In this document: positions 1,016-51,413 of the stretch, piece after piece
Position numbering within the stretch: the first letter of the stretch is position 1
Layout: every line of letters starts with the position of its first letter
From: Candidatus Accumulibacter contiguus
Lineage (GTDB): Bacteria; Pseudomonadota; Gammaproteobacteria; Burkholderiales; Rhodocyclaceae
DNA: 64,000 nt
Direction of reading: 5' to 3'
Assembly: GCF_012940005.1 (NCBI RefSeq)
Contig: NZ_SPMX01000006.1
Span: 186,001 to 250,000 of the forward strand
Position numbers and translations under genes: made by a program
The notes under the pieces: model-generated
What the model was told of the DNA's origin: nothing
Databases searched by the model: none
Seen by the model: the letters and a program-made list of their open reading frames with translations, nothing else

Positions 1016-2086
1016 CTATTCACCCGCGTCGGACATTGGATACCAGGTCGAGTCGGCGAAGGTCACGCCGCAGTTTTCGCCGACCTGCGGGCCGCTTTCG
1101 TGCCGTAACTTCTGCACGCGTAGTACCTGCGTGCCGATGGTGATTTGATAATCGACGATCTCGCCGAGGAAGGCGCGGCGGCGCGCGACGCCGCGCAGGC
1201 CACCTTCGGAAACGAAATCCACATCGGCCGGGCGCACCGCCAGCACGGCTTCACCGGCGCCGACCAGTTCTGCCGGAGCGTCTCCCGCCACAGCAAGCGG
1301 CATGGGCACATTGCCAACCTGGATACCGCCGCCGGAAAAACTCACGCGCAGAAAGCTCGATAGCCCGATGAAGCCGAACACGAAGCGATTGGCCGGATGG
1401 TAATAGACCTCCATCGGGCTGCCGACCTGCTGCAGCACGCCGTTTTTCATGACCAGTATGCGATCCGACAAGGCCATCGCCTCGGACTGATCGTGCGTGA
1501 CGTAGAGCATGGAAAACCCCAGCCGACGCTGGATATCCTTGATCTCGAAGCGCATCTCCTCGCGAAAATGCGGATCAAGGCTGGAGAGCGGCTCGTCGAG
1601 CAGCATTACCGCCGGCTCTATGACCAGCGCACGCGCCAGCGCCACTCGCTGTTTGCCGCCACCGGAAAGCTCGTCGGGGCGGGAGGCGGCGACATCGAGA
1701 AGATGGGTATGCGTCAGCGCCGCACGCACGCGGCGCTCGATTTCGGCGGCGGGCAGCTTCCTGACGCGCAAGGGGAAGGCGACGTTTTCATGAACGGACA
1801 GGTGTGGCCAGACGGCAAACGCCTGGAAAACCATGCCGAGATCGCGTTTTTCCGGTGGCAGATAGTAATTGCGTTTCTTTGACGAAAGTAACCTGTCGCC
1901 GGCCTCGATTTCGCCCTCGTCAAGATCCTCGAAGCCGGCCACCATGCGCAAGGTCGTGGTCTTGCCGCACCCTGACGGCCCCAGCAAGGCGACACACTCG
2001 CCAGGCGCGACTTCGAGGTCAAGACCGGAGACGGCGACCACATGGCCGAAACGCTTGCCGATCTGGCGTAGTCGGAGAGATGACAT
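1016..2086 (-). CDS. ABC transporter ATP-binding protein (FbpC/PotA-like), second ATPase of the operon
   Basis: This 356-residue cytoplasmic ATPase would power an FbpA/PhnS-type importer. Walker A (GPSGCGKTT), a signature variant SGGGKQRVALARA (one Q of the usual LSGGQQQR replaced), Walker B (VMLLDEPLSSLD) and the switch His (VTHDQ) are all visible. A C-terminal TOBE-like regulatory domain follows residue 240. The ATG at 2086 follows a GGGAG site and lies 8 bases after the permease stop, so it is the last gene of the transcript. A longer open frame runs upstream inside the permease gene but reads in the wrong frame there. It is the second ATPase beside a single permease, which is unusual. Substrate unknown: iron, phosphonate or an organic acid are all possible. 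Confidence 0.9.
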   Translation of the reverse strand: MSSLRLRQIGKRFGHVVAVSGLDLEVAPGECVALLGPSGCGKTTTLRMVAGFEDLDEGEIEAGDRLLSSKKRNYYLPPEKRDLGMVFQAFAVWPHLSVHENVAFPLRVRKLPAAEIERRVRAALTHTHLLDVAASRPDELSGGGKQRVALARALVIEPAVMLLDEPLSSLDPHFREEMRFEIKDIQRRLGFSMLYVTHDQSEAMALSDRILVMKNGVLQQVGSPMEVYYHPANRFVFGFIGLSSFLRVSFSGGGIQVGNVPMPLAVAGDAPAELVGAGEAVLAVRPADVDFVSEGGLRGVARRRAFLGEIVDYQITIGTQVLRVQKLRHESGPQVGENCGVTFADSTWYPMSDAGE

Positions 2087-2094
2087 GGGGCTCC

Positions 2095-3756
2095 CTACTG
2101 GCTGACTTTGAAGAAGCGCTTGACCACTACTTCGGCGGTGACGATGATGATCAGCGCGATACCGGCCATGGCGGCCGAGTACACCGTTTCGCCGTCCTCG
2201 TTCAAGGTATAGATCGCGACACCGATGGTGCGACTGGTCGGGCCGTAGAGCAGCACCGAGACGGTCAGTTCGCGCAAGGCGGGTAAGAATATGAGGAAGA
2301 ACGCGGCCACCATGCCGGGGCGCACGAGGGGGATGACGATATCCCGCAGTGCTTGCCACAGGGTGGCGCCAGAGGCACGCGCGGCTTCCACGAGTGAATC
2401 GTGCACCTGCTCCAGCGCCGCCGAGTTGGCCTTGAGCGAAAAAGCCATGTAACGGGCGATATAGGCCACCAGAATGATCCACAGCGTGTTGTAGATATTC
2501 ACGCCGAAGCGACCGCTCCAGGCGAGGATCACGCCCAGTGCAATCACCGAGCCGGGCACCGAAAAGGGCAGCATGCCGAGGAATTCGAGCAGCCCCTTGC
2601 CACGCACCTTCATCTTGACGATCACATAGGAGATGATGACGCCGGCGAACATGGTGATCAGGGCGGCGGCCAGCCCGAGGCTGATGCTGTTCCAGATCGC
2701 GTCGCGCGTGAGGTCCCACTCGAAGAGGATGTGGCGATAGTTGTTCAGCGTCATGTTCTCGAGCGTGAAGGGCAGGCCATAGGTGTTCAAGCCGCCGACC
2801 ATGAAGATGGTGACCGTGGGCAGCACGATGGTGAGGCCGATATAAGCGATGCAGAAGCAGAGCAGCGGGATGCGTAGCCCGCGCAGCTTCAATTCCGCCG
2901 GACGAAAACTCTTGCCGGCGATGATCTGGTAGCGCCCGCGTGCGAGCACTTGGTGCTGCAGCCAGATGATCAACGCGGCGGTGATCACCAGTACCGTGGA
3001 CAGCACCGTGCCGGTACGAATGGCGGCGAAACTGCCACCGCTTTGATGGATCCGTTCGTAGATCAAGGTGGGAATGTTGTAGATGCCGGCTTCGCTGCCC
3101 AGTACGGCGACGGTGCCGAAATGCGCCATTGAATACAGCATGATCAGGAGCGACCCGGAAAGAATCGACGGCAGCACGAGCGGAATGGTGATCTTGCGGG
3201 TAATGGTGAAGAGGTCGGCACCAGAGATGCGTGCCGACTCTTCCAGGGTCGGGTCCATGCGCTCCAGCGCGCCGCTGACCTGGATGAAGACGAAGGGGAA
3301 GAGATACATGGTCTCGACCGCGATGATGCCGAGGTAGGAATAGATGTTGAAGATCGGCGAATCGAAACCCAGCTCATCCATGAAGAAGCGGTTGATGTAG
3401 CCGGCGCGGGGCGAAAGCAGCATCTTCCAGGCGAGCGCGCCAATGAATGAGGGCAGCATGAAGGGCACCAGAAACAGTAGCTTCATGCTGCCCTTGCAAG
3501 GAAGGTCGGTGCGCGTCACCAACCATGCGAAAAAGGTGCCGACGAAGGTGCCGGTGACGGTGACGCCCGAGGCAAGAAGCAGCGAATTGAGCAGTGCCTT
3601 GTAGGTATCCGGTTCGCTCAGGACATTGACCAGATCGACGACATTCAGACCACCGTCCACCCACAGCGCATTGACAAAGATCAACAGCACCGGCACGGCG
3701 ACAAAAATGACCAGAATGCCGACCGCCAGGCCAAAAAAGGATCTGCGGCGTGCCAA
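2095..3756 (-). CDS. ABC transporter permease, double-length FbpB/PhnU-like
   Basis: This 553-residue inner-membrane permease is built as two fused halves, each with about six membrane helices and an EAA-type coupling loop (residues near 175-200 and 455-480). That is the layout of FbpB and of some 2-aminoethylphosphonate permeases. No ATG lies in frame near the start. TTG at 3756 is the only plausible start before an in-frame stop at 3783, giving MARRRSFFGLAVG with an early transmembrane helix. A perfect 14-bp inverted repeat (3777-3824) lies just upstream, in the gap after the first ATPase gene, and could affect expression. It should work with the binding protein at 5011-6009 and the two ATPases. 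Confidence 0.88.
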   Translation of the reverse strand: MARRRSFFGLAVGILVIFVAVPVLLIFVNALWVDGGLNVVDLVNVLSEPDTYKALLNSLLLASGVTVTGTFVGTFFAWLVTRTDLPCKGSMKLLFLVPFMLPSFIGALAWKMLLSPRAGYINRFFMDELGFDSPIFNIYSYLGIIAVETMYLFPFVFIQVSGALERMDPTLEESARISGADLFTITRKITIPLVLPSILSGSLLIMLYSMAHFGTVAVLGSEAGIYNIPTLIYERIHQSGGSFAAIRTGTVLSTVLVITAALIIWLQHQVLARGRYQIIAGKSFRPAELKLRGLRIPLLCFCIAYIGLTIVLPTVTIFMVGGLNTYGLPFTLENMTLNNYRHILFEWDLTRDAIWNSISLGLAAALITMFAGVIISYVIVKMKVRGKGLLEFLGMLPFSVPGSVIALGVILAWSGRFGVNIYNTLWIILVAYIARYMAFSLKANSAALEQVHDSLVEAARASGATLWQALRDIVIPLVRPGMVAAFFLIFLPALRELTVSVLLYGPTSRTIGVAIYTLNEDGETVYSAAMAGIALIIIVTAEVVVKRFFKVSQ

Positions 3757-3776
3757 AACGTGACGCGGCTTTGCTA

Positions 3777-3895
3777 ACGGTCATGACTTTTCCAGGCACC
3801 CCCGATCATGAAAGTCATGACCGTTTCCCTCTCCCCCCCGACCCCTCCCCCCGCGAGGGGGGAGGGGAGATTCGTGCGTCGCTGACGCGACTTTC
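3777..3895. repeat. Intergenic repeat with 14-bp inverted repeat, copy A
   Basis: Perfect 14-bp arms (3777-3790 and 3811-3824, core GGTCATGACTTT) enclose a 20-base loop. A C-rich then G-rich hairpin (about 3832-3868) and a short hairpin GTCGC-TGAC-GCGAC at 3878-3891 follow. A diverged copy of the first part lies at 17108-17160, and the GTCGC hairpin recurs at 63684-63697. Both copies of the 14-bp repeat sit just upstream of minus-strand start codons (3756 and 17093). Either a mobile intergenic element or a shared leader structure. Confidence 0.6.
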
Positions 3896-3898
3896 ACA

Positions 3899-4996
3899 TT
3901 AAGCATGTGCTGCTCCTCTTGCATTGCCTTCCGGCCAGACCTCGTCGAACCATTGCAGGGCGTGAAAGCCCAGACGACAGGCTTCGCCGTCGCGAAACAT
4001 CTGTCCGTCGCCCTGGGCATGGCGGCTGTCGGTCGCTGCGCGCAAAGTCATGCCACCGACCTCGATCAGATAATCGACCTGCGAGCCGAGAAAACTCGCC
4101 CGGCGCACGATACCAGGCAGGCCTTCGCCAGCGCGGCAGAGAAGCACATCGTGCGGGCGAAAACCGGCCGTGATGTGATCGCCGCCGCGCTCCGGCGGCC
4201 GGCCGACCCATTCGGTGGAACCGTCGGGCAAGCGCCAGGCGCGGGCGACTTTCCGCAGCGGAATGAAGTTCGCCACGCCGAGAAAGCGGTAGAGATAGGC
4301 ATCAACGGGGTGATCGAACAATTCGCTCGGCGCGCCGATTTGCCGCAGGCATCCTGTTTCGTCCATCACGGCCAGACGGTCGGAGATGGCCAGCGCGATC
4401 TCCTGGTCGTGCGTCACATAAATGACGGTAATACCCAGTCGCTGCTGGAGTTCGCGAATCTCGAAGCACATTTCCTCGCGCAGATTGGCGTCGAGGTTGT
4501 TGAGCGGTTCATCCAGCAGCAGCAGCGCAGGCTTGGAGACCAGCGCGCGCGCCAACGCGACGCGCTGCTGCTGGCCGCCGGAAAGCTGCGCGGGCAGACG
4601 TTGCTCAAGTCCGGCAAGCCCCACCTGCGCGATCGCGGCCTGCGTACGCTCCTGTCGCTCAGCAGCCGAGAATCTGGCGATTTTCAAGGGATAGGCGACG
4701 TTGTCGCGCACCGTCATGTGCGGCCAGACCGCGTAGTCCTGAAACACCATGCCAATGCCACGCCTATCGGGCGGGACATGGACGCCGGCGTCCGCGACTA
4801 CCGTGTCGTCGATGACGATGCGACCCGCGTCCGGGGTGTCAAAGCCGGCCAAAAGTCGCATCAAGACCGTCTTGCCGCAACTGGAAGGCCCCAGCAGCGT
4901 GAAGCACTCGCCTGCCGCGACCGTCAGATCAAGTCCGACCAGCACGCGGCGACTGCCATAGGACTTGGTGAGTCCCTCGATCCGAATAGCGCTCAT
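3899..4996 (-). CDS. ABC transporter ATP-binding protein (FbpC/PotA-like), first ATPase of the operon
   Basis: This 365-residue ATPase carries Walker A (GPSSCGKT), the signature LSGGQQQRVALARAL, Walker B (LLLLDEPLNNLD) and the switch VTHDQE. A TOBE-like C-terminal domain follows residue 240. The ATG at 4996 lies 14 bases after the binding-protein stop, and the gene belongs to the same minus-strand transcript. It is related to but clearly distinct from the ATPase at 1016-2086, so the transporter may use a heterodimer of ATPases, or one of them may serve another permease. The final residues run into the intergenic repeat at 3777-3895. Confidence 0.9.
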   Translation of the reverse strand: MSAIRIEGLTKSYGSRRVLVGLDLTVAAGECFTLLGPSSCGKTVLMRLLAGFDTPDAGRIVIDDTVVADAGVHVPPDRRGIGMVFQDYAVWPHMTVRDNVAYPLKIARFSAAERQERTQAAIAQVGLAGLEQRLPAQLSGGQQQRVALARALVSKPALLLLDEPLNNLDANLREEMCFEIRELQQRLGITVIYVTHDQEIALAISDRLAVMDETGCLRQIGAPSELFDHPVDAYLYRFLGVANFIPLRKVARAWRLPDGSTEWVGRPPERGGDHITAGFRPHDVLLCRAGEGLPGIVRRASFLGSQVDYLIEVGGMTLRAATDSRHAQGDGQMFRDGEACRLGFHALQWFDEVWPEGNARGAAHA

Positions 4997-5010
4997 GATG
5001 ACCCCGCTGC

Positions 5011-6009
5011 CTACTTCTGCATGATGGCGGTGAACTTCTTGATGGTCGCTTCCTTCTCCGCCATCAACTGCTTGTAGTCAATCTTGATGGCACGCTTCAG
5101 CGCGTCGCTCACTGGGGGCAGATGGAAACGATCCGGCACCTTGACATCGGTGCGCACCGGCAGCGCGCCCTCGTTGGCGACGATCGTCTGGCCTTCCCTG
5201 GACAGCACGAAGTCGACAAATTTCCTCGCCGCCACGGTATTCTGGCTGCCCTTGAAAATGGCGATTGGGCTGGGAATGACCAGCATTTCCGGCGGATAGG
5301 CCAGGGCCAGGGTGGCCCCTTTATCCATTTTGTCGAGCGTGATGTAATCCACGGCCAGGCAGGCGAGCAGGTCGCCGGAGGCGGTATCGTCAATCACCTG
5401 CCCCGAACCCTTGCCCATCCTGGCGCCGTTGGCGCGCAAGCCCTCGATGTACGGCCAGCCGAAGGTCTTGACCAACAGCGAAATGCTCATATAGGCGGTG
5501 CCGGAAAGCGCCGGATTGGCAATGCCGAAGACCCCTTTGAAGAGCGGTTTCTGGACATCGGCCCAGGTTTTCGGCGCTTCCTTGACGAGACGCGTGTTGT
5601 AGGCGATGCCCAGCGTACCCAGCCGCACCGCGGTGAAGGATCCGTCGTAATCGGGCAGTGGATTCTCCAGCGCCTCGATCTCCTTCGGTACATAGGGCTG
5701 CCATACCCCTTGCGCCTTGAGCTGGTAAAAGTCCGGCACTTCGCTGGTCCATAAGATATCGGCGAGGAGTTTGCCGGACTCGATCTCAGCGGCGATCTTG
5801 GCCATCAACTTGCCGGCGCCGGTGGACAGGTAATCCATCTTGACTTCGGGATGCTTGGTGGCAAAGGCCTTTTTTAACTCCCCGATCAGCGATTCCTTCA
5901 TCGAGGTATAGACGTAGAGCTTCTCTTCTGCCTGAACGGCGAACCCCACCAGACCGGCGAGCGCGAAACAGGAAAGTTGCAACAGGCGATGGATTCGATG
6001 GCTTTTCAT
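5011..6009 (-). CDS. ABC transporter periplasmic substrate-binding protein (FbpA/PhnS-like, family 1)
   Basis: This 332-residue protein starts with a Sec signal peptide (MKSHRIHRLLQ, hydrophobic core, cleavage near AVQA-EEK). It has the two-lobe fold pattern of extracellular binding proteins for ferric iron, phosphonates or small acids (YVYTSMKESL, NTRLV, GVFGIANP, LSREGQ). The paired Tyr residues of ferric-binding FbpA are not obvious, so iron is not assured. I chose ATG 6009 over an upstream start at 6063 because it begins the signal peptide. A diverged, internally deleted copy of this gene's 5' end sits at 14770-14959, next to the TctE/TctD-like pair, which suggests that pair once headed this operon. 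Confidence 0.88.
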   Translation of the reverse strand: MKSHRIHRLLQLSCFALAGLVGFAVQAEEKLYVYTSMKESLIGELKKAFATKHPEVKMDYLSTGAGKLMAKIAAEIESGKLLADILWTSEVPDFYQLKAQGVWQPYVPKEIEALENPLPDYDGSFTAVRLGTLGIAYNTRLVKEAPKTWADVQKPLFKGVFGIANPALSGTAYMSISLLVKTFGWPYIEGLRANGARMGKGSGQVIDDTASGDLLACLAVDYITLDKMDKGATLALAYPPEMLVIPSPIAIFKGSQNTVAARKFVDFVLSREGQTIVANEGALPVRTDVKVPDRFHLPPVSDALKRAIKIDYKQLMAEKEATIKKFTAIMQK

Positions 6010-6104
6010 GGCAGGTCTCGGGTGGTTGGCTAGTGGGGTACCACGACCGTGATTGAAAACCACCTGCCTTTCAATAGCCTTTCATTGCTTGTTCAATGGC
6101 ACGC

Positions 6105-6590: not shown

Positions 6591-6642
6591 GATGGTTGAA
6601 GATGTCTCAGGGTATGACGTACACCTATCCGAGTTCCCTGTT
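6591..6642. repeat. 52-bp direct repeat, left copy, flanking the IS66-type element
   Basis: These 52 bases are identical to 9496-9547. The right end of this copy abuts the left inverted repeat of the element, and the left end of the other copy abuts its right inverted repeat. IS66 elements normally duplicate 8 bp, so the length is abnormal. Confidence 0.9.
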
Positions 6643-6727: not shown

Positions 6728-7153
6728 ATGGACGATCTGGCGAAGATAGAGCAAGGAAGGGCTGGGGAGAGCCTGGAACAGGTACGGGAGCGCTTCAGGC
6801 ACTGGCGTGAGATGCGAGGACGCGGTGAGCATCTCCCGCGCGTGTTGTGGATAGCGGCGGTAGATGTCGCTCGGAAACACGGTCTGCACATCACCGCTCG
6901 GGAACTGCGAGTGGATTACGAGCGGTTGAAGAAGCGCCTGGAGCAGTCCTCTGGCGCACGCCAAGCTAGCGGGATGGAGATGCAGTTCGTGGAATTGACG
7001 CTTGCGCCAACCCCTCAAGCGGCTGCTCAAAACCTGAGCGAGTGCGTCATCGAGTTGCAAAGCATGCGCGGCGCGAAGATGCGCGTGGAACTCAATGGGC
7101 CGGGTCTTGCTGGTTTGGTCGGCTTGTGCAGCGCCTTCTGGAGTGGCGCATGA
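6728..7153 (+). CDS. IS66 accessory protein TnpA-like
   Basis: This 141-residue protein has an N-terminal helical part with a helix-turn-helix-like region (residues 20-75), as expected for the IS66 first-ORF protein, whose precise role in transposition is unclear. Its stop overlaps the tnpB start (ATGA at 7150-7153), the translational coupling usual for IS66 tnpAB. I prefer ATG 6728, with GAGG upstream, over the TTG at 6719. Identification rests on position, size and coupling more than on a strong motif. Confidence 0.65.
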   Translation: MDDLAKIEQGRAGESLEQVRERFRHWREMRGRGEHLPRVLWIAAVDVARKHGLHITARELRVDYERLKKRLEQSSGARQASGMEMQFVELTLAPTPQAAAQNLSECVIELQSMRGAKMRVELNGPGLAGLVGLCSAFWSGA

Positions 7154-7497
7154 TTCAGATCACGCCGCATATGCGCATCCTGATAGCGGTCGATCCGATC
7201 GATTTCCGGGCGGGAATTGATGGGTTGGCGGGCGCCTGCAGGCAGCGCCTGGAAGCCGATCCTTTCAGCGGCGCCTTGTTCGTCTTTCGCAACCGCGCAC
7301 GGACAGCGATCAAGATTCTGGTTTATGACGGTCAGGGTTTCTGGCTGTGCCAGAAGCGTCTATCGAGTGGGCGGTTCGCTTTTTGGCCAGACGGGACAGC
7401 GCCGACACAAGGACTCGAGAGTTGCGAGTTGCAGGTGCTGCTGATGGCAGGCGACCCGACGAAGACCCGCGCGGTGCCGCCATGGCGTCGTCTTTGA
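7150..7497 (+). CDS. tnpB: IS66 family protein TnpB (Orf2)
   Basis: This 115-residue protein matches the IS66 Orf2 family. It has the PIDFRAGIDGLAG region near residue 17, the FVFRNRARTAIKIL motif (classically FxNRRRDxxKxL) near residue 45, and LVYDGQGFWLCQKRL after it. Typical length is about 115 residues, so it is complete. It overlaps tnpA by four bases. It converges on tnpC with 41 bases between the stop codons. Confidence 0.88.
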   Translation: MIQITPHMRILIAVDPIDFRAGIDGLAGACRQRLEADPFSGALFVFRNRARTAIKILVYDGQGFWLCQKRLSSGRFAFWPDGTAPTQGLESCELQVLLMAGDPTKTRAVPPWRRL

Positions 7498-7538: not shown

Positions 7539-9182
7539 TTATGCTGCGGTCAATTGCTCGCGGTAATTCCAGGGCAGCCACAAGGCGGGCTGGGCCAGCA
7601 CCTCCTGGGCATGGCTATGCAAGGCCTGCAGATACGCAAACGGATTGACCCGACAGAACTGACACGTATGAATGAGGCTCATGTAGATGTCGCCCACCTC
7701 GGCCCCCTTGAGCGTCTTGTAGAACATCGAATTCTTGCGGTGCAGGATCGCCCGTTTCAGCGCTTGCTCGCAAATGTTGTTATCGAGCGGAGCGCCGGCC
7801 TGGCGCAAAAAGAGCGTCAGTCCGTCCCAGTGCTTGAGCAGATAGTTCAGCGCCTTGCCCAGGCTGCCGTTGGGTTCGACGAGATGCTCGGCGAATTGCG
7901 CCTTGATCCAGTCTTTCAGTTCCTGCAGGGGTTCGGCGCTGTGCGCCTGATGGTAGAGCAGGCGTTGCTCGGGTGACATCTTCTCCTGGCGACAGTGCGC
8001 GTCGTTCGCGTAGGGTTTGGCCAGGATATTGATCAGGTAGTGGCACTCCTTGGGAAAATGCTCCCGCACGTCGACCACCTGGCGTCGGCCATGGGCCAGG
8101 CATTTGCCGATGATCGTGGAAAACTCGCCCGCGTGGTTGCTCGCCAGGGCATCGCTCATCTGGATCGGCAGGCCCAGCGCCGGGTTCCGCTTCGCCAGGA
8201 TATCCGACAGATTCTGCCCGGCGTACTGATGGCCCGTGAAATACAGCGCCACATGCTGCCCTTCCGCCAGGACGGCGACGATGCCAGAGGTGTTGATGGC
8301 CTTGGCCTCTGGCTCTAGACCGTCGGCTTCGAGTTTGCTCCGTTCATTGATCAGCGACAGAACCTTCATCCGGGTGTCGTCGCAGTACAGCAGATCGCCT
8401 TGTCCGGCCTGGTGGGTCAGTTCTCCGAAGACGGCGCGCGGCGCCGGCGCGGCCTGGGCGATGATGTCCCACTGAGTCGCATCAGGCAGGGGGGTGTTGA
8501 GACTTTCCTGCAGACCTTCGATGCGATAGAACGGCAAACCACTGCCGTAGCGCAGCAGAGCGAGCAGGCTGGCACAACTCGGGTCGTATTTGGCGGGGCT
8601 GGTCCCTTCGGGCAGCGACGCGCTGAACATCGCGTCGCACAAGCGGCAGCGCAACTGTTCCAGCTTGTAGACCGTGGCCATCAGCGGTGGCTGGCCGACC
8701 ACCTTGACGACGGTCTTGGGCGGCGCGTCATAGACCTTGCCGATCTGGCACTCCGGGCACAGGTCGCCCGATTTCAGACCGGCCACCGCCCCTTCAATGA
8801 CCGGAGAGTCGGTGTACTTCGCGGCGCCATTGCGGCCGTGACCCTTTTTCTTCCCTGCCCCCTCTTTCTTTGCCTCGCTCTCCTCGACGACCGGTGCCGC
8901 CCCTGCCTCCGCGTTTGCCTCGTCAACCTCGGCGGGTTTGTCGCCCGTTGCCGCGCCTTGACCCAGCACATTGCGCTTGCTTTCCGTCTTCCCGCCAAAC
9001 AGCATTTTGCGAAAGCGAGCGAGGGATGTCTTCGCGTTCTGCAAGGCCAGCATCACGAACACAAAGGTGGCGAGCACCCCTTGCAGCAACTCGTATTGCG
9101 CCGCCGGGAACACCGGCTTGGCCAGCGTCAGCAGTTCGTCGAGCTGCTCCTGGGTCGCATTGACGTGTTCAGGGGGCTTCAT
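7539..9182 (-). CDS. tnpC: IS66 family transposase TnpC (DDE type)
   Basis: This 547-residue transposase has an N-terminal coiled-coil/basic segment, a zinc-finger-like CPECQIGK...CRLCDAMF region (about residues 150-190) and the IS66 DDE domain. The acidic residues are seen in LLYCDDTRM, IQMSDALASNH and LDNNICEQALKRAILHRKNS. The last also holds the N..E...R signature. ATG 9182 overlaps the stop of the small upstream gene by one base (TGATG), implying coupled translation. It reads opposite to tnpAB of the same element. Complete and probably functional. Confidence 0.92.
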   Translation of the reverse strand: MKPPEHVNATQEQLDELLTLAKPVFPAAQYELLQGVLATFVFVMLALQNAKTSLARFRKMLFGGKTESKRNVLGQGAATGDKPAEVDEANAEAGAAPVVEESEAKKEGAGKKKGHGRNGAAKYTDSPVIEGAVAGLKSGDLCPECQIGKVYDAPPKTVVKVVGQPPLMATVYKLEQLRCRLCDAMFSASLPEGTSPAKYDPSCASLLALLRYGSGLPFYRIEGLQESLNTPLPDATQWDIIAQAAPAPRAVFGELTHQAGQGDLLYCDDTRMKVLSLINERSKLEADGLEPEAKAINTSGIVAVLAEGQHVALYFTGHQYAGQNLSDILAKRNPALGLPIQMSDALASNHAGEFSTIIGKCLAHGRRQVVDVREHFPKECHYLINILAKPYANDAHCRQEKMSPEQRLLYHQAHSAEPLQELKDWIKAQFAEHLVEPNGSLGKALNYLLKHWDGLTLFLRQAGAPLDNNICEQALKRAILHRKNSMFYKTLKGAEVGDIYMSLIHTCQFCRVNPFAYLQALHSHAQEVLAQPALWLPWNYREQLTAA

Positions 9183-9379
9183 CACGCCACCTGCAACAGC
9201 CGTTGGCGAAAGTCCTTGACCAGCGCAGAGCCCGGCACTTCGTCGAACGAACGATTGACCGCATGAGTTGTTGAGTCCTGGCCACCTCCGGTCGTCATCC
9301 CCATCAGCGCCGGCTGCCAAAGAAAAACGAGGTCGTCTTCGGTGATCTCGCGGTGGCGGTAGCTCAGGGGGGTCTGCAT
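9182..9379 (-). CDS. Small protein translationally coupled to tnpC
   Basis: This 65-residue open frame starts at ATG 9379 and ends so that its TGA overlaps the tnpC ATG by one base (TGATG). It lies inside the element, just inside the right end. The sequence (MQTPLSYRHREITEDD at the start, mixed charge, no membrane segment) is not one I recognise. Coupling and location suggest an accessory or regulatory product of this IS66 subgroup, but it could be a non-functional leader frame. Confidence 0.5.
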   Translation of the reverse strand: MQTPLSYRHREITEDDLVFLWQPALMGMTTGGGQDSTTHAVNRSFDEVPGSALVKDFRQRLLQVA

Positions 9380-9495
9380 GCCCCGAAGACTAATCCCGCT
9401 TCAGCCCGAACGTAAGCAAAACTTCCAATTACCTCATCGCCGACCGCCTCTAACCCACCCTCCACACCATTTGTGCAGTTTTGCCGGAGGGACAC

Positions 9496-9547
9496 GATGG
9501 TTGAAGATGTCTCAGGGTATGACGTACACCTATCCGAGTTCCCTGTT
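9496..9547. repeat. 52-bp direct repeat, right copy, flanking the IS66-type element
   Basis: Identical over 52 bases to 6591-6642. It starts immediately after the right terminal inverted repeat of the element. Confidence 0.9.
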
Positions 9548-9611
9548 CCATTGCTACCAAGACCCCAGTTTCCTTAGGTGACGCAAGATTCTGGGCCGCA
9601 TCAACGACCCC

Positions 9612-9673
9612 GATTGGCCGCTTTGAGCGGCTCACATAATAATAGCCCCGGCTCTGCCGGGGGATGGTTACTT
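9612..9673 (-). repeat. Double-hairpin interspersed repeat, copy 1
   Basis: Two adjacent hairpins (GCCGCTTTGAGCGGC and CCCCGGCTCTGCCGGGG) recur in opposite orientation, with few changes, at 27255-27312. The element lies beyond the right copy of the 52-bp repeat and at the 3' end of the AT-rich kinase operon, where it could also act as a terminator. Function unknown. Confidence 0.65.
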
Positions 9674-10172
9674 CAACTTCCCGACGTCATTCTCATCGGC
9701 TAAGTCAGGGATCATAAACAGCAGCTCTTCCGGAGATAGCTCTAGGCTAGCATCAAGCTTGTTCAGCGCGACTCGTAAATCAAGAAGACACCTGTGAAGC
9801 TTTGCATGTTTTTCCTGAATTTCATAATAGCGCGCAAAGTCTGCATCTAGCTTGCTTTTTTTCATCGAGTAACGTAGCCAGCAACCTTGCCTCGCCAGTT
9901 TTGCCAAGTCTTATTTGAACTTTATCGATATTTGCCTTAATGGAATTAAGACTCATACTGTCAAGAAAATTCTCATACTTTTCCAATAGCGCCACCAGAT
10001 CAAAAGCAGACCAAACTAATTTAGTCAGCATGTGGGGATCGACCGTCATGGCGCTTCCCTTTGAATTTGATGATATGTTCAAATACTTTTGCACGATGTT
10101 GCCCATCATGCTTCTGAGTCCAATGTGAGAAATGTTACGAAACCGGGCCGCCATTTTTGTGATTTGCGTCAT
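9668..10172 (-). CDS. Coiled-coil protein of the kinase operon, one homopolymer frameshift
   Basis: About 167 residues if one extra base in the T7 run at 9856-9862 is discounted. Frames MTQITKMAARF... and ...SKLDADFARYYEIQEK then join smoothly across LLDEK-SKLDAD. The protein is helical and charged with heptad-like stretches, and has no membrane segment or recognisable catalytic motif. It overlaps the C-terminal end of the first kinase gene by 38 bases and is the last gene of the minus-strand operon that begins near 14518. Base composition is much more AT-rich than the flanks. A structural or adaptor role is only a guess. Confidence 0.55.
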
Positions 10173-11551
10173 TTGACTGCTGGCCGCTTTTTCGCCCGGA
10201 AGCGCCCAGAGTAATGATAGAGCGGACGCGCTGCCGGTATAGAAATATAATAAACAATTCCCCTAAAATAACAGATTTTCCTATCAGAATAAAAGTGATG
10301 GGAGAATTGACGATTAGTATTAATATAAGCGGGAGCAACCCCACAATAAAATAGTAATATGGCAATTGAAAATGTTTGGGAAGGCTCTCGACAATACTCA
10401 GATCAAGCGACAGATTAGCCAATTCATTGACAATGCTGTGAGCCATATTTTTACTAATATTTTTGAATAACAAGGTGGGAAGTCGTTTGAATCGTTTGGT
10501 GAGATTGATTTTTTTGGAGTCTGGAAATGCCTTCAACAAATAGGCACTTAAGGCACTCGGATTGTCGCACCTATGCAAGACAATGGCACAGACGCCTTTC
10601 TCGAAAATATCGTGGCTGAATTTTCCGCAGTTATGGCAGAAAATTAGCCCGGGGATAAGTTCCATCTTGCAACCCCAACATTCGCTGACAGCCATTTCAT
10701 TACCGACAAGCGCCCTCTCCCCTTTTTCAATATCCAACAAAAGCTCGCCACAACTTTGGTATCTCTTGTTCGAATCGGTACGCAAACATTTCAAAATTAC
10801 TTTCTCCAGCCACGGCGGAACATCCTGTCGAAATGCTGAAAAGTTAGTTATTTCCTGCTTGATTTGCTGCGACATGACGGATGAAAGTGACTCACCAGAA
10901 TATGGGGGGTCGTTTTTGTCAGGAACTCAAAAAAAAACACAGCCAAGCGAATAAATGTCCGATCTGGTATCGGATCGGCCCGTAATAAAAAAGCTCCGGG
11001 GGCATATACTCCGGCGTGCCAAGTATAGTGCCGGTTTTAGTAAGGTTTGACATTGTGTTGACCCTGGAAATGCCAAAATCAACTACTTTTATGTCCTTAT
11101 TTTGACTAATCAACACGTTTTGAGGTTTTATATCTCGGTGAAGAACGCTAACCTTGTGGCAGCTTTCGATAGCGGAAACAATTTTCTTTGCAACATCCAG
11201 GAAATCTGCCACTGGCATGGCACCGTAGCGATCAAGATACGCAATACCATTTCTGCTTTCAAAGTACTCCATGACGATAACGTAAAATTCCTGGAATTTG
11301 AGAAAGGCATAGACCTTGACGATGCCGGGATGGCTGAGTGAACGGATAATGCTAACCTCACGACGAAATCTTTCGAGATAGACAGGATCCTGTGACAAGA
11401 ACGGATCGAGTATTTTAAGACTGACCTGAGTCGACGTTTCTGCATCAAAAGCGCGATAGACCGCCGAACTGCGCCCTTTACCCAGAAGTCCTTCAACCCA
11501 GTAGCGATTGTCGATAGTAAAACCGTGCGGGAGAGCATCGTAACTAATCAT
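10135..11551 (-). CDS. Ser/Thr protein kinase with zinc ribbon and two-helix membrane tail (kinase 1), frameshifted
   Basis: A Hanks-type kinase of about 471 residues after correction. The kinase domain (about 1-270) shows a Gly-rich loop (LLGKGRSSAVYRA), catalytic Lys (SLKIL), HRDIKPQN, DFG (VDFGIS) and the P+1 element (PEYMPPEL), all intact. A CxxC...CxxC ribbon (CWGCKMELIPGLIFCHNCG) and two hydrophobic helices near the C-terminus follow. The frame breaks in an A6 run (10987-10992), and a run of nine A (10929-10937) would put a stop codon in the recovered frame before it resumes. It starts at ATG 11551, overlapping the preceding stop (ATGA). It is paralogous to kinase 2 (12101-13491). Presumably cytoplasmic kinase, membrane-anchored; targets unknown. 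Confidence 0.75.
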
Positions 11552-11929
11552 AATGCCCTTCTTGGAAGATGCTCCAGATCGGCTTTGATCCGCTTCCAGA
11601 TATCGACATCTTGCCGCAGTTCGCCGATTCCTTCACGAATAACTTCTAGCTCTGCCTCCTCTATTTGTCTATCAAAAACCAAAGCCATTCCAATGAGGCG
11701 ATTGAATAGTGCCATGGCCATGAAAAAAACGATTCACCAATGCCGCATAATTCTCTTCTTTGGTGAAAAGGCGCTGCATTGCACTTTCAAGATAACTAGT
11801 ATCCTGATCGTTGCGCATTTTAAAATAATATTCGCGCATAAGTTTTGCCAGTTTAACATTCTGCTGTGCCAATTTAACGTGGGAAATATGATTGGCAATG
11901 GGCAACATTGTTACTACGAGTTCACGCAT
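11548..11929 (-). CDS. Unknown 126-residue helical protein of the kinase operon, one homopolymer frameshift
   Basis: It starts at ATG 11929 (MRELVVTMLPIANHI) and, if one base is removed from the A7 run at 11723-11729, continues without interruption to a stop at 11548. That stop overlaps the start of kinase 1. The protein is predicted helical, with a hydrophobic stretch around FFMAMALFNRLIGMALVF (about residues 70-87) and an acidic amphipathic C-terminal part (EEAELEVIREGIGEL). I do not recognise the family. Tight overlaps with both neighbours argue that it is a genuine operon member. Confidence 0.55.
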
Positions 11930-12072
11930 TTGCACTCTTACCCTGTTGCTGGTGCTTTTTTGCATGTTTCTCAAAAATCCACAAACGTTCCAGCGTTTGC
12001 GAGATGATTTTTTTGCATGTCTTCATTTCTCTTTACTTTGAGAAGCGGAGAAATACTGCCAAACCACCTCAT
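11922..12072 (-). CDS. Small 49-residue basic protein of the kinase operon, one homopolymer frameshift
   Basis: From ATG 12072 the frame (MRWFGSISPLLKVKRNEDM) continues into QKIISQTLERLWIFEKHAKK if one base is removed from the T7 run at 12008-12014. It ends at 11922, overlapping the next start at 11929. The span is 3n+1 bases, consistent with a single overcalled base. It is basic and helical with no known domain. Supported mainly by tight packing and the consistent error pattern. Confidence 0.4.
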
Positions 12073-12100
12073 TTCCGATAATTTGCCACTTTCAAAATCC

Positions 12101-13491
12101 TTACTGACCAGTACTGGCTTTGGGAAAATGGCGATATAAGTTGTTTTTTACCCACCAACCCAATAAAAATAAAACAAACACTAGTAAAATTAATGAACCC
12201 CAAGTGGGGGAAGAGATACCCAAAGAAAAAGAAATAATAATGAAAGCCAAATATATAGTAATAATACAGGCTATTGGCAGCCTGAAAAGAAGGCTGACCA
12301 CCCTGCCAAGATTTCGGGTAACGCTACCTTGGCTGACGACGTGAATACCATATTGTTGCATGGCCTTTTTAATGGTATTGACAAATACCTCATCAACATT
12401 CGCCGCAATGACGGTACCCCGCTTGCCTGGGCAGACAATGTCTTTCCCAGTATAATCCATAAAAAAACATCGCAATTTTTCAGGGTCTTGTGGCGAGTCA
12501 CAGATGATGTAATAGTCACCCTCACTGTAACGCTCGGAGCCGTTATCCCCGCAGGAGAAACATACAAAAGCATCAGCAGGCATTTGCTCTCCACAGGCAA
12601 AGCATGGTCTGGTTTTAAATACGGGAATCTCGCTGGAAATTACCTTTTTTTGCGTTGAGGTCGATCCTGACATCATTGGCGCTTTGATATCGTTGATATG
12701 ATTTCTTTGCCAGCAACTTGAAAATTATTTGTTCGAGCCATTGAGGAATATCCTTGCGATAATTGGACAGCGCGGGAATCTGATCATTAAAATGCTTGTT
12801 AAAAATTACTGCAAGCGTATCCCCTTGAAAAGGAATTACTCCGCTTAATAACTCGAAGGCAATAATGCCGATCGCGTAAAGGTCGCTGCGCGGTTCATAC
12901 GCACTGGCGGCAAAAAAGTTCCGGTGCCATATATTCCGGTGAGCCAAGCGAGGTTCCAACTTGCGTCAGGTCGCTAAGGGCTGTCATTCGCGCAATACCG
13001 AAATCGAGAATTTTGATGTTCCCATCTGCGGTAATCATAATATTTTGCGGTTTAAGATCGCGGTGAATGACGCTTTTAGAATGACACAAGGAAAGCGCAT
13101 CCAATAGTTGCGTGATGACTGAGACTACCGTTTGAATGGAAAGTGGCGAGTGGAGCTTGATGTAATCCTTGAGACTCATGCCATCGATGAACTCCATTAC
13201 TAGGTAATTCAGATCACCCCTGACCGCAAGATCATAGATGGAAATGACATTCGGATGATGGATGGCACGGGTAATTTGAATCTCCCGTTTGAATCGTTCA
13301 AGGCTAATTTTATCTGTTTTAAGATGTGGATTTAATACTTTAATTGCGACGGTTGTACCGGTTTTCTTATCCAATGCCTTAAATACTTTTGAGGTCATCC
13401 CTTCGCCAATGAGTTCAATCTCGGAAAAATGAGATGTCAACGCGCTCGTCTGATCAGAATTCACAGGTTTTTGCTCGACGATGTGAGGCAA
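12101..13491 (-). CDS. Ser/Thr protein kinase with zinc ribbon and membrane tail (kinase 2), frameshifted
   Basis: A Hanks-type kinase of about 462 residues after removal of one base at each of two runs: A6 at 12912-12917, inside the P+1 motif APELF, and T7 at 12645-12651. Visible motifs are the Gly loop IGEGMTSKVFKA, AIKVL, IHRDLKPQN, LDFGIA, SPEYMAPEL and the SDLYAIG helix. The tail has a zinc ribbon (CFACGEQMPADAFVCFSCG) and two membrane helices near residues 395-440. The start is a TTG at 13491, next to the stop of the PspA-like gene. The first frameshift lies at exactly the same motif as in kinase 1. Likely membrane-tethered signalling kinase. Confidence 0.75.
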
Positions 13492-13492
13492 T

Positions 13493-14257
13493 TTATTCCC
13501 AATCGGATTGATTTACATATGGCTTGTGCTCCAATTGAGAAATTTGGGATAACTTCTCATCTGATTTAATAACTTTCTGCGCAAGTTTTTTCTTTTTAGC
13601 TGCTGAATAGCCTGATCACCACGATCTTTTTCTTTCTAACTGAATAAATCGTGCTTCGAGGTCAGAGTTATTCGTATCGCTCATTAGCTCCATATTTGCT
13701 TCAGCCTCTGATTCGATCATAAGAATACGATTATTCAATTTGTTCATTATTTCAAACGGAGAATTATCCATGCCAGGCGAAAGCGTTTTTCGAGATTTTT
13801 TTGATTAGTTTCCGCTGCCTTGTATCGCGCCACAAGTAACGTATATTTTTCTTTTTGCTTCATCCACTCTCTCCTTTGCAATAGATAATGAGTGCTTAAG
13901 CTTTAAGGTGGCTTCTTTTTTGTACTTCCCACGTTTTGTAAATAACGGGAATTTGATTTTCATTTTCTTCTTTTTTTAAGCAAGGCCTCACGGGCAAGAT
14001 TTTCATCTTCGGCTTTTTAATGCCATTATGGCTTTCCGCTCCCATTGTTGTGCATTTGCGTCAAGATCATCCATCTGCATTTTAAGGCGCTTTTCATCAG
14101 CCATGGCGGCAGCAACCGCTTTACGAAGACCAACCATTTGGGTGTTGAGATCATCAATAAACACAAAGAGTTGTTCTTCGGGCTTTTCAAGTTTTTCCAA
14201 CATTAAATTGCTCTTGCCGCGTAAGATATTTAAGACACGATTGATGAATTTTGTCAT
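13493..14257 (-). CDS. PspA/IM30-like coiled-coil protein, multiply frameshifted
   Basis: The intact start (ATG 14257, GGGAGGT upstream) reads MTKFINRVLNILRGKSN then LEKLEKPEEQLFVFIDDL, a typical PspA/IM30 N-terminus: an amphipathic helix, then a long coiled coil. Downstream, family-like pieces (ENLAREALL, ENQIPV, ERVDEAKRK, VARYKAAET, SPFEIMNKLNNRILMIESEAEA) appear in order but in shifting frames. The shifts fall in A/T runs near 14014-14018, 13971-13977, 13916-13921 and others down to about 13620. Corrected length would be about 250 residues against the usual 220-230. PspA-family proteins bind and remodel stressed inner membrane and are ESCRT-III relatives. Either error-ridden sequence or a pseudogene. 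Confidence 0.6.
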
Positions 14258-14371
14258 AATAAAATTACCTCCCAGAAAATATATGCGATTGGGCCTTGAT
14301 CATCGTTTCGGCTCCCTGCTACGTCGCCAGAGGCATCAGAGCGTGTTAAAAAAACCATTCTTGATTATGTT

Positions 14372-14518
14372 TCATAGTTTAATATTGAAGACCTGTCGTC
14401 GTGTGGATTCGCTGTTGATATAGGGGTTCAGGGAGTAACGGAACCCGTAGCGCATCAGGTCGGAGTCGGGATCTCCTGCGAACTGGTGGGTGATGTCCAG
14501 TAGATCGCTGCTATTCAT
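14372..14518 (-). CDS. Small 48-residue protein, first gene after the sigma-54 promoter
   Basis: The frame starts at ATG 14518 with GGAGAAC upstream and reads MNSSDLLDITHQFAGDPDSD, ending in a Lys/Arg-containing tail. I do not recognise it. It is the first open frame downstream of the minus-strand sigma-54 promoter at 14608-14622 and precedes the PspA-like gene by 114 bases. Small size makes it tentative, and it might be the remnant of a longer gene. Confidence 0.4.
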   Translation of the reverse strand: MNSSDLLDITHQFAGDPDSDLMRYGFRYSLNPYINSESTRRQVFNIKL

Positions 14519-14607
14519 GATGCCGTTCTCCAGGGGACAGGCAATCGAGAAGATGCGAGCTGCGAGCATCTCGCCTTGCCATGCAAGATGCCGTGAGGTG
14601 ATACTAC

Positions 14608-14711
14608 GCAAGTGCCGTGCCAGCACAGATGGCCTTCATGGAATATGTAATAAATTAATTTAATGTAATTTTTTAAAATAACACAAAGCACGAGTGCCGG
14701 ATTTCCGATAC
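14608..14711 (-). promoter_or_regulatory. Sigma-54 promoter with upstream activator-like site for the kinase/PspA operon
   Basis: On the minus strand TGGCAC-GGCAC-TTGC (14622 to 14608) matches the -24/-12 consensus exactly. About 87 bases upstream is TATCGGAAATCCGGCAC (14710-14694), similar to sites at 17857, 18498 and 30657, which have almost the same spacing. The sequence between is strongly AT-rich, as expected for an IHF bend. Confidence 0.7.
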
Positions 14712-14769
14712 CGCCCGTTTTGCAGACATCGTATTTCCGACGCCCGGACGCCAACGGATCAACACTGAA

Positions 14770-14959
14770 GAGCGGGACCAGGAATGACCAGCATGTAGAG
14801 CGTCTCTTCTGCCCGTGCGGCGAAACCCAGCAGACTGGTGAGCGCAAAACAGGAAAGTTGAACAGGCGATGGCTTTTCATGGTCAGGTCTTCGGTTGTGG
14901 GCCAGTGGGGTCCCGCGACCGTGATTGAAAACCGCCCGCCTTTCAATAGCCTTTCATTG
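14770..14959 (-). pseudogene. Remnant of the ABC substrate-binding protein gene with its leader
   Basis: This stretch aligns with 5275-6087 after a large internal deletion. The leader (14881-14959) and the start (ATG 14880, MKSHRLFNFP) match the intact gene at 6009. The match then continues into its signal peptide and jumps near 14794 to the segment corresponding to about 5287. Similarity ends exactly at the kinase stop (CAATGA at 14954-14959), as it does at 6087. Divergence from the intact copy shows the duplication is not recent. Confidence 0.75.
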
Positions 14960-27230: not shown

Positions 27231-27254
27231 TTTGCCCAGATGGCTGAAGCAGTA

Positions 27255-27312
27255 ACCATCCCCCGGCAAAGCCGGGGGCTTTCATTATGTGAGAGCCGCT
27301 CAAAGCGGCTAA
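27255..27312 (+). repeat. Double-hairpin interspersed repeat, copy 2
   Basis: Inverted copy of 9612-9673, with hairpins CCCCCGGCAAAGCCGGGGG and GCCGCTCAAAGCGGC separated by ATTATGTGA-like sequence. It lies in the gap before the CoA-transferase gene. Confidence 0.65.
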
Positions 27313-50228: not shown

Positions 50229-51413
50229 ATGAATCGCAACCGCTACAGGAATTTCTGGAACCGTCGCCTTGAACGGACAATGGATATCGAGACTCTGCTG
50301 ATCGATGACCCCGCAGGTCTAGTCAACGTACGGCCGCGGCATTTCATGAAGCGCGAAATCACCTTCTTCCACACCGACAAGGTTGAGTGGCAGACGATGC
50401 GGCCGGTCGCCGTCGAAGCCGAACGGCGTGGCTACCGCGTCGAATTCAGCGACCGCATCGATGCACCCTCAGAGATCGGCGTCTACTGCTCGCATAGCCC
50501 TTCGCCGAGGAACAGTCGCTTCTCGGCAATCATGCTGCACGACCTCGCGCAGCGGCACGATATCTGGCCGGACTATTGGCTGACCGAGCCATGGAACGAA
50601 TTCGATCTCGGCTTCCTGCCGGGACCGAGTTGGGGTGAACGCTGGTACCGGTCGTCGCTGCAGCCGCAGAGTCGGCCGAGGCGCGGCGTCTTCCAACTCG
50701 GCTGGCCAAAAGCCGATTCGCTATTCAACTGTCGCGAAAACTTCCAGCGCGAGGCCGACGAACTGCGTCACCAGCTTGGGCTACGCCACGATTTCAGCAT
50801 TCTCTACGCGCCGTCATGGGAAAACCACGGCAAACAGGACGATTTCGTCCGTGCGCTCAGCGATCTACCGTTCAACCTGCTGCTCAAGCAAGCCCCGTGG
50901 TCGGATCGATATCCCGAAGTACTGGCCAGCATCGCGGAAATGAATATGTTGCACCGCAACGCCAGTCCCAATGTCCACATCATCGACCCCGAAGTCGGCA
51001 TCCTCCACTGCCTGGCACTCGCCGACCTGATGGTTTCAGACGAATCGAGCGTGTTGATCGAGGCACTATTGCTCGACGTCCCCGGCATCGCCGTGATGGA
51101 CTGGCTGATTCCCGATACCTCACCAGCGCGAAGAGCCTGCGTGCCTTTCGACTTCGTCACCCGGATCGAGCGAGGCGCGCTGCGGGCGATGGTAACCAAC
51201 ATGATCGAGTGCCTACCCGAAACACGCTCAGAACTCGCCGCGGTACGCGAGCGCCACTTTTCATGCCTCGGCCAAAGCGCGGCGCGGATCATGGACGTCC
51301 TCGACGCCTGCGTCGAAGACCGACCGATCCCGCACGCGCCCCTTTCGGCAGCGCCCACTTCGCTGCCGTCGCGCATCTGGTCAAAGCTGTGCGCACTCGG
51401 CCACTGCCGATGA
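50229..51413 (+). CDS. CDP-glycerol glycerophosphotransferase (TagB/TagF)-like protein
   Basis: This 394-residue protein has the C-terminal fold of CDP-glycerol:polyglycerophosphate transferases: FSILYAPSWENHGKQDD near residue 195, LLLKQAPWSDRYPEV, and LADLMVSDESSVLIEALLLDVPGI, where the SDxSSV..E pattern marks the nucleotide site. Next to genes that would make CMP-AEP, it is a good candidate for transferring the phosphono group from a CMP carrier to the glycan. Glycerophosphate transfer is the alternative. I start at ATG 50229, with ATG 50280 possible. It overlaps the next gene by four bases. Confidence 0.7.
   Translation: MNRNRYRNFWNRRLERTMDIETLLIDDPAGLVNVRPRHFMKREITFFHTDKVEWQTMRPVAVEAERRGYRVEFSDRIDAPSEIGVYCSHSPSPRNSRFSAIMLHDLAQRHDIWPDYWLTEPWNEFDLGFLPGPSWGERWYRSSLQPQSRPRRGVFQLGWPKADSLFNCRENFQREADELRHQLGLRHDFSILYAPSWENHGKQDDFVRALSDLPFNLLLKQAPWSDRYPEVLASIAEMNMLHRNASPNVHIIDPEVGILHCLALADLMVSDESSVLIEALLLDVPGIAVMDWLIPDTSPARRACVPFDFVTRIERGALRAMVTNMIECLPETRSELAAVRERHFSCLGQSAARIMDVLDACVEDRPIPHAPLSAAPTSLPSRIWSKLCALGHCR

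Follow-up and report, generated by a model that had tools for sequence, protein, structure and literature searches.

PspA and Vipp1 proteins are bacterial relatives of ESCRT-III, and to our knowledge the switching of their assembly is an open question in most bacteria. Control by phosphorylation has a precedent in RsmP of Corynebacterium glutamicum, a PspA-family relative (PMC11237479) whose place in the cell is affected when PknA and PknL phosphorylate it (PMC3296230; PMC11237479). The PspA gene context for that system is described as a thioredoxin-like gene or clgR/pspM, not kinases (PMC11237479). In Bacillus subtilis, pspA lies in one operon with ydjG, whose product is a membrane protein with a zinc ribbon, and recruitment of PspA to the membrane is suggested by two-hybrid data (PMC9239133; PMC11237479). 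Here we describe a minus-strand operon in a 64,000-nucleotide stretch of Candidatus Accumulibacter contiguus DNA (contig NZ_SPMX01000006.1, positions 186,001 to 250,000; hereafter the window), in which a gene of the PspA/IM30 family is followed by two Ser/Thr kinase genes, each with a gene for a small helical protein behind it (Table 1).

We read this locus as a horizontally acquired membrane-maintenance operon in which membrane-tethered kinases control a co-made PspA polymer, and assign this reading a probability of roughly 0.4. It is based on the protein families and motifs, the homologous ribbon-helix tails of the two kinases, the tight gene ends with a terminator, and frame breaks that can be attributed to homopolymers. 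The gene set is a variant of the PspA-centred membrane systems and not a new category. Its likeness to RsmP with PknA and PknL lies in Ser/Thr kinases setting the place of a PspA-family coiled-coil protein; that system is actinobacterial, its kinases are not reported as gene neighbours, and ribbon tails or small helical partners are not mentioned in the portions of the sources that treat it. Its likeness to the B. subtilis pspA-ydjGHI operon lies in PspA being encoded with a zinc-ribbon membrane protein, in a set proposed to recruit PspA (PMC9239133). The main text of that source describes no kinase domain for YdjG (PMC9239133), and the B. subtilis set has a band-7 protein and YdjH, neither of which was seen among the island open reading frames (ORFs) scanned. 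If a PspA protein is indeed tied to two tethered kinases in one operon, control by phosphorylation could be tested there in a compact setting.

Table 1. Features of the operon and its surroundings, in window positions unless contig positions are given.
Feature	Position	Strand	Remarks
Whole operon	9646-14257	minus	pspA, kinase 1, small protein A, kinase 2, small protein B, terminator
PspA/IM30 family gene	13493..14257	minus	7 frame changes; about 253 residues when the pieces are read through
Kinase 1, Hanks-type	12101..13491	minus	CxxC...CxxC ribbon, stretch of about 70 residues, two C-terminal membrane helices (predicted); 2 frame changes
Small helical protein A	11548..11974	minus	1 frame change; about 139 residues read through, with an uncertain start; no known family
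Kinase 2	10135..11551	minus	paralogue with the layout of kinase 1; 3 frame changes
Small helical protein B	9668..10172	minus	about 167 residues read through; 1 frame change; no known family
Hairpin terminator	9646..9662	minus	directly 3' of the last stop codon; 7 G-C pairs, 3-base loop, T-rich tail
IS66 genes, downstream flank	TnpB 7042-7497, TnpC 7539-9320	TnpB plus, TnpC minus	PF05717 7.7e-28, PF03050 3e-38
Two abutting repeated-element ends, probably insertion sequences, upstream of pspA	14282..14400	minus	
Start of ABC solute-binding gene, duplicated fragment of about 165 bp	14795..14959	minus	83% identity to 5914-6087 over 175 alignment columns
Split transketolase	contig C96 114421-116470		two ORFs meeting at a T7 run
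Probable methyltransferase gene	50639-53195 (contig C96 236639-239195)		frame shift at T8, likely assembly error; second half without Pfam match

Gene content and layout of the operon

Both kinases match Pfam Pkinase (2.7e-47 for kinase 1, 3.4e-39 for kinase 2), with the C-lobe piece of kinase 1 scoring 4.7e-07 and 29.9 bits, slightly under the curated cut-off of 31.7. Read by eye, the Hanks-type catalytic motif set is complete in each, with what we take to be the glycine loop, the lysine, the helix-C glutamate, HRD[LI]KPQN, DFG and PEYMxPE. The two proteins share 37% identity over 255 columns. The preliminary description, made from the DNA letters and a list of ORFs, was right to call them paralogous kinases with complete catalytic motifs. 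The best solved relatives of their kinase domains were 9ymt, 4eqm, StkP and PknB. While the catalytic domain is that of PknB/StkP-type kinases, the operon kinases have no PASTA match and carry a C-terminal ribbon and two membrane-helix-like segments instead. Against the PASTA kinase model NF033483 the pieces, scored separately, gave 211.5 and 85.4 bits for one kinase and 172.7 and 29.6 bits for the other, with sums below the cut-off of 450 and matches ending by profile position 271 of 563.

Each catalytic domain is followed by a CxxC...CxxC ribbon, a soluble stretch and, by hydropathy, two membrane-helix-like segments, as had been claimed before. The ribbons score 15.3 and 15.7 bits against Pfam DZR, under its cut-off of 27.3, and the tails match no family above cut-off in Pfam or NCBIfam and show no convincing match in PADLOC or PHROGs. 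Tail 1 and tail 2 are homologous to each other, with a global z of 8.8 and 0 of 400 shuffles scoring as high, which excludes chance for this comparison, as chance is likewise excluded for the kinase and PspA matches. A single-sequence structure model of tail 1 placed helices at residues 116-152 and 157-183; its mean pLDDT (predicted local distance difference test) of 52.5 was poor, and it was dropped as a fold-search query for that reason.

The first PspA piece matched PF04012 (2.7e-13, 50.5 bits, cut-off 33.9). When the gene was read through, with X at the junctions, alignments to the top-scoring solved PspA/Vipp1 chains began at residue 6 and ended at 219-225 (1.7e-16 for the best), and the protein also aligned with the canonical PspA of another genome at 28% identity (2.9e-16), which gives a full-length PspA core and bears out the PspA-like coiled-coil protein first noticed. 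Residues 1-18 form an amphipathic, putatively membrane-binding helix with a hydrophobic moment of 0.52. Compared to the classical PspFABC system, the operon shares the PspA core protein; PspF, PspB and PspC were absent from the 10 operon ORFs scanned, where the kinases take their place, and the 8 scanned neighbours were IS66, ABC transporter and two-component genes.

It was noted that the host possesses an intact PspA of its own (G000:C65:7302-7949), and a native PspA was present in 15 of the 40 other relatives searched. The possibility that the island PspA stems from these native genes was rejected: the island PspA, kinases, tails and small proteins had no match at 0.01 in 16 regions around native PspA genes, one of which came from another family of the order, so the island protein is not a recent copy of the host's PspA. 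No kinase of the island type was found beside native PspA in these 16 regions.

For small proteins A and B, searches of Pfam, NCBIfam, PADLOC and PHROGs gave no family that convinced (best 0.0067 in NCBIfam for A and 0.037 in Pfam for B). No relatedness between them was detected, and on that ground a duplication of the whole kinase-plus-small-protein unit was rejected.

The island stands out by composition, with 39-44% G+C at 10-14 kb compared to about 60% for most of the window, in agreement with the AT-rich island first described. That description had also counted six to seven minus-strand genes with overlapping ends, three or four of them coding for small unknown proteins. The abutting or overlapping ends were found; the genes number five and the small proteins two, the remaining ORFs being fragments that were listed because the frames are broken. 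A single base separates the pspA stop from the kinase-1 start, small protein A shares an ATGA overlap with kinase 2, and the overlap of kinase 2 with small protein B amounts to 38 bases, provided that the listed start of B holds. The sole larger intergenic gap, of about 125 bases, follows kinase 1 and precedes small protein A, for which the true start is uncertain. Terminator-like sites in 9400-14800 numbered 7 compared to 5.2 expected.

This layout bears on whether the genes are fortuitous neighbours, with the kinases and small proteins forming a signalling set of their own and PspA a separate passenger. The one-base spacing between pspA and kinase 1, the low G+C that is similar throughout and the single terminator at the operon end argue against such a chance assembly, which we regard as distinctly unlikely. 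In its favour, debris of insertion sequences (IS) could have stitched the genes together, and the pairing of kinase and PspA has not been seen elsewhere. The main texts of two PspA-neighbourhood catalogues, which contain neither "serine" nor "protein kinase", point the same way: the word "kinase" occurs six times in one, always for histidine or sensor kinases (PMC11237479), and in the other for histidine kinases and an EphA2-type, tyrosine-kinase-related domain (PMC9239133). We found no description of a PspA operon with Ser/Thr kinases in the accessible text of openly licensed PMC papers.

As a separate observation, the region around the operon terminator (9614-9672) resembles an inverted copy at 27251-27312 (89%), perhaps a small dispersed repeat.

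Broken frames and the state of the operon

A total of 14 frame changes was counted in the five genes, with the junctions placed manually from the open frames. Homopolymers of at least 5 bases were found at 12 of these 14, compared to a mean of 1.9 and a maximum of 7 in 2000 random placements, and no in-frame stops were seen in the joined pieces. We then considered runs on the same 278-kb contig, with its three AT-rich stretches excluded. A/T runs lay well inside ORFs of at least 200 residues in 28 of 53 cases for 6-mers, 6 of 15 for 7-mers and 0 of 9 for runs of at least 8, and G/C runs of 7 or 8 did so in 8 of 15 cases. Three genes outside the AT-rich stretches were found to shift frame exactly at a run, namely a transketolase (T7), a probable methyltransferase (T8) and a DDE transposase (A9).

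The transketolase pieces cover profile positions 2-180 and 179-334, and a search of the genome gave no second full-length Transketolase_N, only three further places that match in part. Because this housekeeping gene is broken in the same manner, the frame breaks are probably homopolymer errors of the assembly and the operon is probably intact in the cell, as the preliminary description had suspected when it proposed that better reads would restore the frames. The gene set itself is real, and it was encountered once in the places searched.

The same data were weighed for a decayed remnant without present function. Such decay would fit at least 14 frame changes in five genes, two of them away from runs of at least 5, as well as the IS fragments all around; several runs of 7 to 9 elsewhere on the contig sit in open frames, so misreading is not universal at runs. 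We nevertheless consider a remnant unlikely, since most changes fall at homopolymers, the joined pieces are free of in-frame stops, the catalytic and ribbon residues are retained, and the only full-length transketolase found, which lies on the same contig, breaks likewise. Recent slippage decay is possible. For this assembly, the analysis means that broken frames in AT-rich islands are not to be called pseudogenes without reads.

Relatives of the operon and the proposed mechanism

We searched for relatives of the individual proteins and for a second kinase-PspA pair in samples of relatives, phylum, order and class genomes, which overlap, and joined queries were less sensitive than single ones. 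Tail 1 matched its own genome only among 150 relatives' genomes, with no match in the 149 others. A joined query of the tails and small proteins likewise matched only its own genome among 398 phylum genomes (397 others without a match); its sensitivity is limited, because it missed small protein B even in that genome. When the tails, small proteins and PspA start were searched against 399 order genomes, five weak matches were obtained among the 398 others (2.7e-4 to 0.007), and all five were rejected. One was a canonical PspA with no kinase match in the surrounding 14.6 kb (G728), another was due to a hydrophobic protein (G553), and a third had no tblastn match at 0.1 (G629). The last two (G740 and G118, of one genus) were 129-residue proteins without a kinase whose likeness is limited to a C-terminal ribbon, at 54-62% identity with the tail-1 ribbon over 21-26 residues, and no kinase or PspA match at 0.1 was found around them (3.1 kb each, and 15 kb also for G740). 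These proteins, which may be of the DUF2007 type, are possibly a source or relative of the tail-1 ribbon.

The kinase pair profile reached 130 other genomes at 1e-40 among the 398 phylum genomes. Among the matches listed, with at most four candidates scored per genome, those from other genomes end by model position 295. The best 29 other kinase loci contained no PspA or small-protein match, and gave three tail-1 matches at chance level (0.09 to 0.9). Three others among 350 class genomes passed 1e-64, all by the kinase domain only, and a PspA match of 0.001 in the class-genome kinase loci was rejected, as it falls in a long coiled-coil protein. PspA was found in 10 other genomes (11 places; 24-31% identity) out of 210 class genomes, with no adjacent kinase.

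A first homologue scan of genome contigs returned no match, and in a second the best 80 of 589 confirmed stretches match query residues 4 to 322 at most, which is a weak negative. Plasmids gave no match for the tails, small proteins or PspA and only kinase-domain matches for kinase 1, where the sole record with 80% cover was 25% identical. Phages were searched with the tails and small proteins and gave no match. Viral contigs gave no match for kinase 1 with its tail, for the C-terminal pair alignment or for small protein B, and yielded one generic kinase. Across all of the genomes searched, the co-occurrence check turned up neither a credible relative of any tail or small protein nor a second place where a kinase gene neighbours pspA.

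With the evidence on gene content in place, the membrane-maintenance reading can be set out as a sequence of steps. The paired C-terminal helices would hold both kinases in the inner membrane, with the kinase domain and zinc ribbon facing the cytosol and the ribbon serving as a docking or sensing element. A cue from the membrane or one received by the ribbon would activate the kinases, which would then phosphorylate either the co-made PspA, as PknA and PknL do RsmP, or the two small helical proteins, which may act as adaptors. Phosphorylation would in turn determine the site and timing of PspA assembly at the membrane. This reading takes the frames to be unbroken in the living cell, as the run analysis suggests.

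Several observations weigh against this reading. Neither a phosphatase nor a classical Psp partner was seen among the ORFs scanned. The poor tail model also counts against it. The kinase-ribbon architecture is isolated, given that none of 116 kinase ORFs from other genomes' loci (overlaps included) has the ribbon pattern after its kinase domain. Among 227 loci, counting overlapping ones and the island's own, a PspA ORF was present in 52 (28 distinct places) and a kinase ORF in 132, and 0 of the 227 held both within stretches of about 2-21 kb, a span at which a distant kinase-PspA linkage escapes detection; the island itself was uncounted because its PspA pieces fall under the 120-residue ORF limit. 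With a single known instance, the conservation of the kinase-PspA pairing cannot be shown.

A bolder version of the membrane-maintenance reading holds that the operon is a mobile and self-contained, kinase-gated membrane machine of the ESCRT-III superfamily, in which the two ribbon-tailed kinases, each followed by its small helical protein, together switch the assembly of a dedicated PspA polymer that is separate from the host PspA. We hold this version to be doubtful, although conceivable.

Flanks, probable acquisition and the question of phage defense

The surroundings of the operon are rich in traces of mobile elements. Upstream of pspA, both abutting element ends recur elsewhere in this genome or genus: one matches the terminus of an IS5-like element of contig C103, with the transposase type assigned by eye, and the other matches a repeated end in C113, C4, C121, G010 and G004. 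The gene whose start the ABC fragment duplicates belongs to an operon (1016-6063) across IS66 from the island, and a histidine kinase/response regulator pair lies beyond the fragment. Given these element ends, the ABC duplication and IS66 with its direct repeat, the island looks like an acquired, IS-framed insertion. The preliminary description had placed it between an IS66 element and a broken ABC operon; IS66 is there, and the supposed ABC operon is only the fragment of about 165 bp. Its proposal of an acquired module fits the composition, the IS debris on both sides and the compact gene run with a terminator.

An acquired, AT-rich and IS-flanked island also invites the suggestion of phage defense, made early on. 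In such an anti-phage module the kinases would detect infection and, by way of PspA, set off or gate a response at the membrane. PspA would be suited to membrane protection during infection, GmrSD_N (type IV restriction) domains lie in another AT-rich stretch about 45 kb off on the same contig, and the kinase domains match the PADLOC PD-T4-6 and mad6 models. The strong matches in PADLOC do not extend beyond the generic kinase domain, however, and the ribbon-helix piece reaches only 0.0056 (PDC-M48A) and 0.015 (JukA) in PADLOC. PD-T4-6 is a single-kinase system, and a function of its kind is compatible with the sequence. What the operon shares with the PD-T4-6 and MADS/BREX defense kinases is a Ser/Thr kinase domain; the strong matches end with that domain, the partner genes of these systems were not seen, and the summed NCBIfam scores of the kinase 1 pieces are far under the cut-offs (about 162 bits for MAD6, cut-off 460, and about 77 for PglW, cut-off 990). 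No nuclease or known effector was found among the ORFs scanned, and phages yielded no relatives of the tails or small proteins, nor did viral contigs yield any of tailed kinase 1 or small protein B. A role in phage defense is thus possible without specific support, and we think it improbable.

Two further AT-rich stretches were noted on the contig. One (contig C96 135000-140500) has low ORF coverage and many A/T runs, and five ORFs scanned there matched no Pfam family at 0.01. The other (contig C96 147200-151000) has ORFs of mostly 38-41% G+C with GmrSD_N and DUF7834, is frame-broken and looks like an acquired type IV restriction locus. Around the operon itself, the imperfect direct repeat formed by 5914-6087 and 14795-14959 spans both IS66 and the island, which suggests duplication or recombination, and a perfect 52-base direct repeat (6591-6642 and 9496-9547) flanks the IS66 genes.

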